This document shows positions 5,122 through 64,000 of a DNA stretch of 64,000 nt, one piece after another. The translations under genes were made by a program, and so were the position numbers. Source of the DNA: Mucilaginibacter frigoritolerans (GTDB lineage Bacteria; Bacteroidota; Bacteroidia; Sphingobacteriales; Sphingobacteriaceae); the NCBI RefSeq assembly GCF_007830615.1, contig NZ_VLLI01000001.1, forward strand, positions 310,001 to 374,000, in the 5' to 3' direction. The first letter of the stretch is position 1; each line of letters starts with the position of its first letter. The notes under the pieces are model-generated. The model did no database searches, was not told the DNA's origin, and saw nothing but the letters and a program-made list of their open reading frames with translations.

Positions 5122-6078
5122 ATGAAAATAACCGAACACATCAGCAACGCTAAAGGCAAAACACTTTTTTCTTTTGAATTGATACCACCTTTAAAGGGAC
5201 AAAGTATCCAGGGGATTTATGATGCCATTGACCCTTTAATGGAATTTAAGCCGCCCTTCATTGATGTAACTTCACTGCGTGAGGATTTTATTTATAAAGA
5301 ACATTCAAATGGCTTGCTGGAGAAATTAAGCTATCGTAAACGACCAGGCACTATTGCTATTTGTGCGGCAATTATGAATAAGTACAAGGTGGATACAGTT
5401 CCTCACTTATTATGCGGAGGCTTTACCAAAGACGAGACAGAGAATGGCCTTATTGATTTGCAATTTTTAGGAATTGAAAATGTGTTGGTTTTGCGTGGAG
5501 ATGCCCGTAGAGGGGATGCTTCCTTTGTGCCAACACCAAACGGTCATAATTATGCTACCGATTTGTTACAGCAGGTAGTTAATTTAAACAATGGCATTTA
5601 TTTACACGAATCTAATGACGAAATTCTGAAAACAAGTTTCTGCATTGGTGTGGCAGGGTATCCTGAAAAACATTTTGAGGCGCCGAATCTGAAAACTGAT
5701 TTCAAATACCTAAAGCAAAAGGTAGATATGGGGGCCAACTTTATTGTTACCCAAATGTTTTTTGACAACCAGAAATATATCGACTTTGTAAATAGTTGCA
5801 GGGCTAACGGAATTAATGTACCTATTATTCCGGGTTTAAAACCGGTTGTTAATTCAAAGCAATTGGTTAACCTGTCAAAAACTTTTCATATCGATATGCC
5901 TGAAGATCTTTGCGATGCAGTAAACAGTTGCAAATCAGAAAAAGAAGTAAGAGAAGTAGGCATAGAATGGACAATAAACCAATGTAAAGAGCTGATAAAA
6001 TTTGGAGCACCAGTATTACATTTTTATACCATGAGCAATGCAGGGCCAACCAAAAAAATAGCTGAAGCAATATTTTAA
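5122..6078 (+). CDS. metF: Methylenetetrahydrofolate reductase MetF
   Basis: Reduces 5,10-methylene-THF to 5-methyl-THF with FAD, supplying the methyl donor used by MetH. The 318-residue product begins MKITEHI; the frame stays open back to a GTG at 5056, but that extension encodes a palindromic repeat (5099-5112) and no conserved sequence, so the ATG at 5122 is preferred. FSFELIPP near residue 16 holds the conserved catalytic glutamate of the TIM-barrel family, and LRGDARRGD and TQMFFDN match conserved family segments. It ends in a strong terminator shared with the facing peptidase gene. Cotranscription with metH puts it under the same riboswitch. Confidence 0.95.
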   Translation: MKITEHISNAKGKTLFSFELIPPLKGQSIQGIYDAIDPLMEFKPPFIDVTSLREDFIYKEHSNGLLEKLSYRKRPGTIAICAAIMNKYKVDTVPHLLCGGFTKDETENGLIDLQFLGIENVLVLRGDARRGDASFVPTPNGHNYATDLLQQVVNLNNGIYLHESNDEILKTSFCIGVAGYPEKHFEAPNLKTDFKYLKQKVDMGANFIVTQMFFDNQKYIDFVNSCRANGINVPIIPGLKPVVNSKQLVNLSKTFHIDMPEDLCDAVNSCKSEKEVREVGIEWTINQCKELIKFGAPVLHFYTMSNAGPTKKIAEAIF

Positions 6079-61641: not shown

Positions 61642-63213
61642 CTATTCATTGATAGGGACGGTGAACCAGAAGTTACTGCCATTACCCAACGTACTATCCA
61701 CACCAATGGTTCCATTATGTCTTTTGATTATTTCTGAGCTGATATAGAGTCCCAATCCAAGACCAGAGAATTGATGACCCAGGGTATCTACACGGTAATA
61801 CCTGTCGAACAAATGAGGGAGTTTTTGAGGGTTTATGCCAATGCCAAAGTCTCTAACAGAAACTTTAACAAAATCAGCATTCGTAGCCACGGTTATCTCA
61901 ATTTTTTTTGATTGAGGTGAATATTTTACTGCGTTATTAATCAAGTTAACCAGCACCTGATCAATACGGCGATAATCGGCAAATATCATTACCGTTTTAT
62001 CGGTATTAATGGTGAAATTATGATCGCTTATCAGTTTTGTGTTCTCACAGCAGTCATGCACTAAATCGGCAAGGTTAAAAAGGGTTTTGTTCAGGCCCAA
62101 TTGTCCTTGCTGAATTTTGGTTACATTGAGCAAATCATCAAGAAGGTGTACCAGCTTATTTAAATTATTACTGGCCTTATTAACAAACAAAGGGATTTTT
62201 TCTGGACTCGAGTTAGTTTTGATCAGCTTTTGCAGTATCTGCATAGAAGCACTCAGTGAAGTTATAGGTGTTTTTAACTCGTGACTAGCTACACTTATGA
62301 ATTCATCTTTTCGTTGCTGTAATTTATATTCTTCGGTAACATCCAGCAAAATACCGCTAAAACGGTAGGCAATCCCTTCAGCATCGAACCGGGCTTTGCT
62401 GATGGCTTCAACAACCCTCCGGCTTTTGTTTACGGGATTTTCGATGGTGTAGATAACGCTATAATTACCATCAGATCCTTTTTCAATTGCTTTTTGTATG
62501 GTGGCAATAACACGTTCTTTATCTTCATCAACAATAACATCAATTGCGGTATCGAAGTCTATTTCATCTTCTAAAGGTAAGCCAAACCATAATTTTAAAC
62601 GATCGTTACTAATAAAATGATTGGTTATCGGATTTAAATCCCAGGTACCCAAGTCAGCTGCTTCTATGGCAAACTCAAGCTCTCTTTTTGCTTCCTGTAT
62701 TATATTATAGGTTTGTACCTTGTTAGTAGTTTCATTACAAATAACCAGTACACCGGCTATTTTTCCGGTTTCATCTTTAACAGGGCTGTAGCTGAATGTC
62801 CAGTAAACATCCTCTAATCTTTTATTTCGATAAATAGGGATAAGTTGATCCTCGCTCCATGTTGGCTCCCCGGTTAAAAGTACCTGGTCTATTAATGGTT
62901 TAATAATTGGCCATATTTCTTTCCAGCAGTCTTCACCGCGCTGACCAAGTGCCTTTGGATGTTTGCCATTATTGCCCAGGCTGGGGCGATAGGCATCGTT
63001 GTAAAATTGAATAAGATCCTCACCCCACCAGATAAACATCGGGAATCTTGAATTAAGCATGATGCTTATGGTGGTCAGTAGACTCTGCGACCACCCTTCA
63101 GGGCTTCCTAAAATAGTTTTTGACCAGTCGAATTCCCTTGTCAGCCTTCCCATTTCACCGCCGCCTTCTAAATATTGTTGATATGCTATTGATGGTGAAT
63201 AATTTGATGTCAT
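61642..63213 (-). CDS. PAS sensor histidine kinase
   Basis: 523 residues, cytoplasmic. An N-terminal PAS-like domain of the kind ILGSPEGWSQSLLTTISIML...FPMFIWWGEDLIQFYND (about 30-165) is followed by a second PAS (about 180-295, ending GILLDVTEEYKL), HisKA with H311 in VASHELKTPITSLSASMQIL, and an ATPase domain (NLINNAVKYSPQ, VRDFGIGINPQKLPHLFDRYYR, GLGLGLYISSEI). All catalytic boxes are intact. There is no membrane segment and no adjacent response regulator. Confidence 0.9.
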   Translation of the reverse strand: MTSNYSPSIAYQQYLEGGGEMGRLTREFDWSKTILGSPEGWSQSLLTTISIMLNSRFPMFIWWGEDLIQFYNDAYRPSLGNNGKHPKALGQRGEDCWKEIWPIIKPLIDQVLLTGEPTWSEDQLIPIYRNKRLEDVYWTFSYSPVKDETGKIAGVLVICNETTNKVQTYNIIQEAKRELEFAIEAADLGTWDLNPITNHFISNDRLKLWFGLPLEDEIDFDTAIDVIVDEDKERVIATIQKAIEKGSDGNYSVIYTIENPVNKSRRVVEAISKARFDAEGIAYRFSGILLDVTEEYKLQQRKDEFISVASHELKTPITSLSASMQILQKLIKTNSSPEKIPLFVNKASNNLNKLVHLLDDLLNVTKIQQGQLGLNKTLFNLADLVHDCCENTKLISDHNFTINTDKTVMIFADYRRIDQVLVNLINNAVKYSPQSKKIEITVATNADFVKVSVRDFGIGINPQKLPHLFDRYYRVDTLGHQFSGLGLGLYISSEIIKRHNGTIGVDSTLGNGSNFWFTVPINE

Positions 63214-63366
63214 GTAAGGTAGAGAATATGTTTTTTATTAAAGGGTAAATATAATTATTGCAACAACGTTTTTTTAATAATAAAGTTTTGGCCAAAAAGA
63301 GCTTTAAGGAATAGAATTAGTGACTAAAGTAATAAATCAATCCGAGAAATCTATTTTTAAATTATC

Positions 63367-63397
63367 TTTCATATTAAAAACTAATTACTTACCTTTG
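63367..63397 (+). promoter_or_regulatory. rpsU promoter
   Basis: TTTC (63367-63370), 19 bases, TACCTTTG (63390-63397), an exact -7 match with a one-base-off -33 box. Confidence 0.55.
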
Positions 63398-63406
63398 CCT
63401 TCCCTG

Positions 63407-63415
63407 AAAGGAGGT
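63407..63415 (+). promoter_or_regulatory. Perfect Shine-Dalgarno before rpsU
   Basis: AAAGGAGGT, complementary over eight bases to the 16S rRNA 3' end, lies 10 bases before the rpsU ATG. Other start regions in the window lack such a site, as expected for Bacteroidota. Confidence 0.85.
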
Positions 63416-63425
63416 ATTTGGAATT

Positions 63426-63620
63426 ATGATCATTATCAACGTAAAAGACGGCGAATCATTAGATAAAGCATTGAAACGCTTCAAAAAGAAATTTGAAAAA
63501 ACAGGAGTTTTAAGAGAGCTTCGTAGTCGCCAGGCATTTGAAAAAAAATCTGTTACCCGCCGTCACGTGGTGAAACATGCCATCTACAAACAGAATATGA
63601 ACTTAGAAACAACTGTTTAA
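63426..63620 (+). CDS. rpsU: 30S ribosomal protein bS21
   Basis: 64 residues: MIIINVKDGESLDKALKRFKKKFEKTGVLREL matches bS21, with a basic C-terminus (KKSVTRRHVVKHAIYKQN). In Bacteroidota ribosomes bS21 helps bury the 16S anti-Shine-Dalgarno, which explains why most mRNAs lack one; the strong site ahead of this gene fits self-regulation. The following xerC/D-type gene starts 84 bases on, the usual Bacteroidota order. Confidence 0.96.
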   Translation: MIIINVKDGESLDKALKRFKKKFEKTGVLRELRSRQAFEKKSVTRRHVVKHAIYKQNMNLETTV

Positions 63621-63704
63621 TTCTTGTTAAAAGAATTTTAAGTTTTTCTACCAATATATCAAAACTATTTGTACATTCATCTTTGGAGTGTGCAAGTAGT
63701 TTTT

Positions 63705-64000
63705 ATGTTTTCAGAGCGATTTATCCGGTATATTAAATTCGAGAAAAGGTATTCCCCGCATACCGTATTGGCCTATCAATCAGACCTCGATCAGTTTTTT
63801 AACTTCCTAAATAATCCTGATAAAAAGGTACCTGCTCCTGAGGCGGTAATTACTCATCCTTCACAAATAACGCACCATCATATCCGTAACTGGATGGTTG
63901 AAATGATGGGAGATCAAATCCTGGCGCGTTCCATTAACCGTAAGATAGCTACGCTGCGTAAATATTTTAAATTTATGCTGCAGGAAGGCGTGATAGAAAT
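63705..64000 (+). CDS. XerC/XerD-type tyrosine recombinase, N-terminal part
   Basis: The gene runs off the window edge; 98 complete codons are visible from the ATG at 63705. MFSERFIRYIKFEKRYSPHTVLAYQSDLDQFFNFL is the SAM-like N-terminal DNA-binding domain of Xer recombinases, and HHIRNWMVEMM...SINRKIATLRKYFKFMLQEG continues it. The catalytic domain lies outside. By position after rpsU it is probably the chromosome dimer resolution XerC homologue, but XerC and XerD cannot be told apart here. Confidence 0.88.
   Translation, partial: MFSERFIRYIKFEKRYSPHTVLAYQSDLDQFFNFLNNPDKKVPAPEAVITHPSQITHHHIRNWMVEMMGDQILARSINRKIATLRKYFKFMLQEGVIE

Follow-up and report, generated by a model that had tools for sequence, protein, structure and literature searches.

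The closest described system is the autoregulation of ribosomal protein bS21 in Flavobacterium johnsoniae (McNutt et al. 2023, PMC9976891), a species in which both the sequestration of the 16S rRNA tail and the response to bS21 loss have been demonstrated. According to the parts of that paper available to us, on which all statements from it rest here, an rpsU'-gfp reporter went up about 3-fold with the Y54A change or upon bS21 depletion, and more than 4-fold with truncated bS21. A tuf reporter with AGGAGGU as its Shine-Dalgarno (SD) sequence rose more than 2-fold with truncated bS21, 1.7-fold with Y54A or depletion without inducer, and 1.4-fold with inducer, and reporters lacking an SD were nearly unchanged, with a slight fall for rpsE. 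Ribosomes without bS21 initiated faster on rpsU, an advantage that was gone at 37 C in one assay, and normal ribosomes too formed unusually stable 70S complexes on the rpsU mRNA, the leader of which is 25 nt long. In the view of the authors control is limited to rpsU in F. johnsoniae, and in nearly all Sphingobacteriales rpsU was the clear winner under -13 kcal/mol. In the portions seen of two further papers, Tyr54 stacks on A1534 in F. johnsoniae (PMC9723584) and the model is restated in 2024 (PMC10783764). In our literature search on bS21 autoregulation, the sources, as far as they were accessible, did not name Mucilaginibacter and the experiments found were all with F. johnsoniae; the names Mucilaginibacter and Pedobacter have 0 occurrences in the main text of PMC9976891.

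We analysed a window of 64,000 nucleotides (the whole stretch of DNA under study) from a Mucilaginibacter genome of 5.66 Mb, in which rpsU lies close to the end (Table 1). Its product was the sole bS21 match in a search of the own genome and aligned to chain z of PDB 7jil (E 2.7e-16), presumably the F. johnsoniae ribosome, with Tyr54 placed on Tyr54; among the matches listed, the closest named relative by bS21 was Mucilaginibacter sp. X4EP1, 100% identical. The letters from 63402 are CCCTGAAAGGAGGTATTTGGAATT, the rpsU ATG being at 63426, and AAAGGAGGT lies on the + strand at 63407-63415, separated from that ATG by 10 bases. The upstream element resembles TAnnTTTG, the -7 promoter consensus of Bacteroidota, and its position would fit a leader of roughly the 25 nt reported for F. 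johnsoniae rpsU, which would place the transcript start near 63401. Structural control by the rpsU leader was considered and rejected, as 63402-63455 folds at only -4.5 kcal/mol and 187 of 200 shuffles do at least equally well; in the predicted structure, the SD's AGG pairs with CCU in a hairpin of three pairs, too weak for such control. No Rfam match at gathering score was obtained for 63000-64000. The stem-loop at the rpsU stop is also weak (z -1.4; 17 of 200 shuffles fold as well).

Table 1. Coordinates of rpsU, its leader elements and the neighbouring genes
Feature	Position	Strand	Basis
Promoter-like -7 element TAnnTTTG, TACCTTTG	63390-63397	+	ends 28 bases before rpsU ATG
Extended SD GAAAGGAGGT (G63406 plus AAAGGAGGT)	63406-63415	+	ten consecutive pairs with the 16S tail
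ATTT, conserved, directly 3' of the rpsU SD	63416-63419	+	columns of 81 leaders
rpsU, bS21, 64 aa, Tyr54 present	63426-63620	+	ORF; Pfam Ribosomal_S21 4.3e-18
AT-rich stem-loop followed by a T-run, overlapping the rpsU stop; possible terminator	63619-63637	+	-5.5 kcal/mol
Tyrosine recombinase gene start, cut by the window end	63705-64000	+	ORF; Pfam Phage_integrase, C-terminal part
hpf, 115 aa, SD AAGGAGG	C1:374629 (L198:629-976; window-equivalent 64629)		Pfam Ribosomal_S30AE

Every pairing computation, the class-wide ones included, was made with a 16S tail (...UCACCUCCUUUCU) read in a genome of the same family (L100). A search of the own genome with RF00177 gave no match and left its own 16S 3' end unread, the tail expected for it being CCUCCUUUC. 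The 16S-tail pattern matched in 2 of 60 relatives and a related pattern in 1 of 301 family genomes, and the tails seen were one from the family (L100) and two from the class (L097 and L098). The duplex of the rpsU SD reached -17.0 kcal/mol with a 13-nt tail, -17.3 with 16 nt and -12.2 with 8 nt, and the 16S bases paired are those that we take, by numbering, to be A1534-C1543. The site thus lies under the published limit of -13 kcal/mol, computed here with RNAduplex (the program of the authors differs) and a tail from a same-family genome. In the 16-nt duplex the ATTT that follows pairs past one unpaired tail base (C1533 is left out), with a gain of only 0.3 kcal/mol. The A after GGAGGT was invariant in all 81 leaders compared (window plus best 80 relatives), though it stands unpaired opposite C1533.

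How unusual this site is was judged at several scales. In the window, AAAGGAGGT was found once on both strands, against 0.53 expected, and 44 of 100 shuffles had at least one copy, so that its occurrence alone is unremarkable and it is position and conservation that count. In the whole genome, AAAGGAGGT-N(3-14)-ATG occurred at 15 places (two of which are one site with two ATGs), versus 6 for the reversed control; 14 of the 15 belonged to short frames (4-44 codons) or lay inside a longer frame, and only that of rpsU opens a gene. Among the 49 window ORFs of at least 60 aa, GGAGG was present within 24 bases before the start in rpsU only. The next strongest window starts (16-nt tail) were 5122 (-12.2), 36306 (-11.2), 63705 (-9.2) and 30669 (-9.1), as compared with -17.3 for rpsU. 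The 318-aa ORF at 5122 is preceded by CCCCCTTAAGGGGGGTAGGGGGT, another G-rich, repeat-like stretch, which pairs at -12.2. Five ORFs (36306 in the window, and C1:47445, C2:182597, C2:301994 and C7:21347) have called starts that come a few bases after the end of a dispersed repeat, GGGGAGATTTAGAGGGGGC; this repeat looks like an SD and could be a REP-like element or a sign of wrong starts.

For a wider comparison, we took 1466 called ORFs of at least 60 aa in 1.654 of the 5.66 Mb (29% of the genome), their starts being called mechanically as the first ATG of the longest frame, so that some are wrong, and used as mock sites the 50-70 bases upstream of starts. The SD before rpsU announced by the first-pass annotation proved real: with its ten pairs and -17.0 kcal/mol, the site at 63406-63415 ranked first among the 1466 starts of this sample, and its pairing was stronger than those of rpsR, rplI and rpsF among the ribosomal protein genes compared. 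Pairing at -6 kcal/mol or lower was found at 133 starts versus 222 mock sites, and at -8 or lower at 64 versus 91; at -10 both counts were 27, and at -12 or lower starts exceeded mock sites (15 versus 8), two of these 15 being what we take to be frames in 16S fragments at contig ends (C6 and C7). At -13 or lower there were five starts, rpsU included, and three mock sites. Since weak pairing is depleted at starts, as is also reported for Flavobacteriales (PMC9976891), and pairing at -12 is enriched, most genes here avoid SDs and a few have real ones. GGAGG preceded 15 of the 1466 starts, among them those of rpsR (-12.6; Pfam S18), rplI (-11.7; Pfam L9) and hpf (-12.2; Pfam Ribosomal_S30AE), which have moderate SDs. 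The statement that the genome otherwise lacks SDs goes too far, in view of these three genes and of the four further starts at -13 or lower (C7:8430, C1:41043, C3:274741 and C3:219350), on account of which strength alone singles out rpsU less cleanly than in Flavobacteriales. In that order, as far as the available text of PMC9976891 goes, it is usually rpsU alone that has an SD, whereas in this genome moderate SDs also stand before rpsR, rplI and hpf. Jha et al. 2021, as cited in the accessible parts of PMC9976891, described SDs of rpsR and of further ribosomal genes in Bacteroidia, and the rpsR (-12.6) and rplI (-11.7) sites resemble them, both being weaker than that of rpsU.

We then compared the leader of the window with those of the best 80 of at least 553 confirmed relatives (L017-L096, named mostly Mucilaginibacter and Pedobacter), which are the nearest ones and not a fair draw; the 81 leaders comprised 52 distinct ones. 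The core GG[AGT]GGT was present in 81/81, as GGAGG in 69, GGGGG in nine and GGTGG, which breaks one pair, in three. The columns before it were also nearly fixed (G in 80, A in 81, A or G in 80 and A in 79), and so were those after it, with T in 81 followed by ATTT (A 81, T 80, T 63 and T 74). Pairing was -13 kcal/mol or lower in 78 of the 81 leaders with the 13-nt tail and in 80 with 16 nt, those above -13 with the shorter tail being L038 (-11.7) and L058 and L083 (both -12.9). A lack of conservation in relatives had been named by the first-pass annotation as a result that would refute its reading, and the alignment gave the opposite, with the core kept in every leader of this set. The remark that the spacing is slightly long was not borne out: the distance from GGAGG to ATG, 11 bases here, is ordinary for the family (12 in 42 leaders, 11 in 23, 13 in nine, and 9, 10 or 14 in seven). 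Tyr54 of bS21 was likewise found in 81/81. In 79 of the 81 leaders there was a TAnnTTTG whose end lay 28-56 bases from the ATG, the SD core staying 9-14 bases away; the two leaders without the element were L019, where the contig ends after 32 bases, and L038, which has none. In six leaders of a Pedobacter group (L051, L052, L054, L066, L073 and L082) we noticed by eye C-rich runs followed by G-rich ones (such as CCCC...GGGG). They lie between the promoter-like element and the SD, at about 35-50 bases from the ATG, where a short hairpin at the 5' end of the transcript is possible.

Beyond the family, rpsU was found in 115 of 119 evenly drawn class genomes. The class count had 119 rpsU rows, of which 90 were read, that is 89 loci besides that of the window, the 28 weakest rows being left out; three of the 89 loci belong to the same genus or family. 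An rpsU SD at -9 kcal/mol or lower was present in 15 of the 89, all 15 being also at -13 or lower, and in 12 of the 86 outside the family. In eight of these 12 the core is followed by GGTG, and the pairing is at -18.8 to -22.2 kcal/mol. The helix of the family stops at A1534 and is followed by the conserved ATTT, whereas those eight loci pair one base further.

These data make the rpsU SD a genuine element that the family conserves, credible in function and already explained in print, and we think it very probable that bS21 limits its own synthesis by negative feedback with this SD as the sensor. In such a loop, complete ribosomes would hold the 16S 3' tail in a pocket of bS21, bS18 and bS6, with Tyr54 of bS21 stacked on A1534; the anti-SD would be hidden and mRNAs would be chosen without an SD. 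A shortage of bS21 would free the tail in the ribosomes that lack it, and through the ten-base-pair helix with the rpsU leader these would start preferentially on rpsU until bS21 is replenished. Genes for both partners of the pocket, bS18 and bS6, are present in the genome, the latter gene being presumably that of bS6, as judged by its sequence. The extended SD, strongest of the sampled starts, the depletion of weaker SDs and Tyr54 are all likenesses to bS21 autoregulation in F. johnsoniae, as far as the accessible accounts describe it, and from the sequence we infer that the same loop probably operates in this Mucilaginibacter. The autoregulatory loop put forward by the first-pass annotation is thus supported, being the one published for F. 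johnsoniae (PMC9976891, in the parts available), with which the sequence signs here agree; its wording that the SD would be read only by ribosomes short of bS21 goes too far, given the unusually stable 70S complexes formed by normal ribosomes on rpsU mRNA in the same source and the loss at 37 C, in one assay, of the rate advantage of ribosomes without bS21. The locus cleanly exemplifies the mechanism of McNutt et al. in a family that is well sampled, and the comparison of 81 leaders defines the exact sequence block to mutate.

A broader version would place a small gene set (rpsU, rpsR, rplI and hpf) under the control of bS21-poor ribosomes, with bS21 shortage tied to ribosome hibernation. The hpf start lies 629 bases past the window end and 1203 after that of rpsU, beyond the recombinase gene, and its AAGGAGG (-12.2) is conserved: the SD was at -9 kcal/mol or lower in 74 of the 76 family relatives scored (80 loci were searched and four had no hpf in reach), the two exceptions being L059 (-8.8) and L086 (-3.0), and the start being uncertain in L072 and L078. 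It was kept also in L067, L076, L081 and L087, where the preceding bases differ from the usual recombinase gene end. The rpsR (-12.6) and rplI (-11.7) SDs are in favour as well, and so is the AGGAGGU reporter of F. johnsoniae, which responded to bS21 loss by 1.4- to over 2-fold (PMC9976891, available parts). However, rpsR, rplI and hpf are all weaker than -13, and hpf usually follows an upstream stop by a few bases, so that the SD may be there for coupling inside an operon. In the class, moreover, the hpf SD was found in 18 of 62 loci and was unlinked to that of rpsU: both SDs were present in three loci, that of rpsU only in ten, that of hpf only in 15 and neither in 34, and without two same-family loci both occurred in 1 of 60. 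This lack of co-occurrence led us to downgrade the joint rpsU and hpf regulon, and with the limitation to rpsU stated for F. johnsoniae in the text available of PMC9976891, we regard the small set as unlikely. A search of the Bacteroid literature for a hibernation factor with an SD found, by title and abstract, no paper on an SD of hpf, which is no proof of absence.

It could also be argued that the strong SD is a constitutive boost of rpsU translation with no feedback, since sequence alone cannot separate a strong from a regulated start and normal ribosomes too form the unusually stable 70S complexes on rpsU mRNA (PMC9976891, in the parts seen). Yet in the same source a strong SD placed on tuf of F. 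johnsoniae somewhat lowered the yield of normal cells and raised it in cells with mutated or depleted bS21, and the EF-Tu gene here (Pfam) lacks an SD (2.0 kcal/mol for the 13-nt tail and -1.5 for 16 nt), which makes a constitutive boost highly improbable. That the motif is a product of chance, as the 0.53 copies of AAAGGAGGT expected per 64 kb shuffle might suggest, or a by-product of the promoter region has a practically negligible probability and is refuted by the core standing 9-14 bases from the ATG in 81/81 leaders, with the promoter-like element 28 to 56 away.

Outside the host genomes, bS21 is also encoded by phages, and an aromatic residue in their bS21 was already noted by Chen et al. 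2022 (PMC9723584, in the portions available); in those portions no mention of an SD of the phage bS21 gene was found, nor was a paper on it found by our literature search. We examined 58 bS21 loci in viral contigs (L130-L187), 42 with a Bacteroidia-type start and matched from residue 1, and 16 without, one of the 58 (L181) having no start codon near the bS21 match. The 42 copies, which are related to each other, reduce to 22 distinct protein-leader pairs. No SD better than -4.0 kcal/mol (-3.1 in the 20 bases before the start) preceded any of the 42 genes, and a Tyr, judged by eye, stood at the position of Tyr54 in 21 of the 22 pairs. Around the 22 pairs (one locus each), 4 of 186 neighbouring starts reached -8 kcal/mol versus 12 mock sites, and around the 16 other loci 63 of 140 did so versus 8 mock sites; with so few SD starts in comparison with the other loci, the Bacteroidia-type group looks adapted to SD-poor putative hosts. 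A tentative suggestion, rather unlikely as it stands, would be that the phages of these putative Bacteroidia hosts stay outside the host loop, their bS21 keeping the Tyr that hides the anti-SD and its gene lacking an SD. If this were true, complete ribosomes would produce the phage bS21 free of feedback, and host rpsU would be switched off. Considering that 74 of the 89 class-wide host rpsU loci are also without an SD, the phage observation is a lead and not a result. Together with the conserved hpf SD, the phage bS21 genes without SD provide two cheap tests of the reach of the mechanism beyond rpsU. Of five public phage records, one being a twin of another, four were read (L328-L331): three were without a strong SD (0.8, -5.1 and -1.1), and the bS21 gene of the huge phage LR756501 had the SD AAAGGAGGA, at -12.1 kcal/mol.
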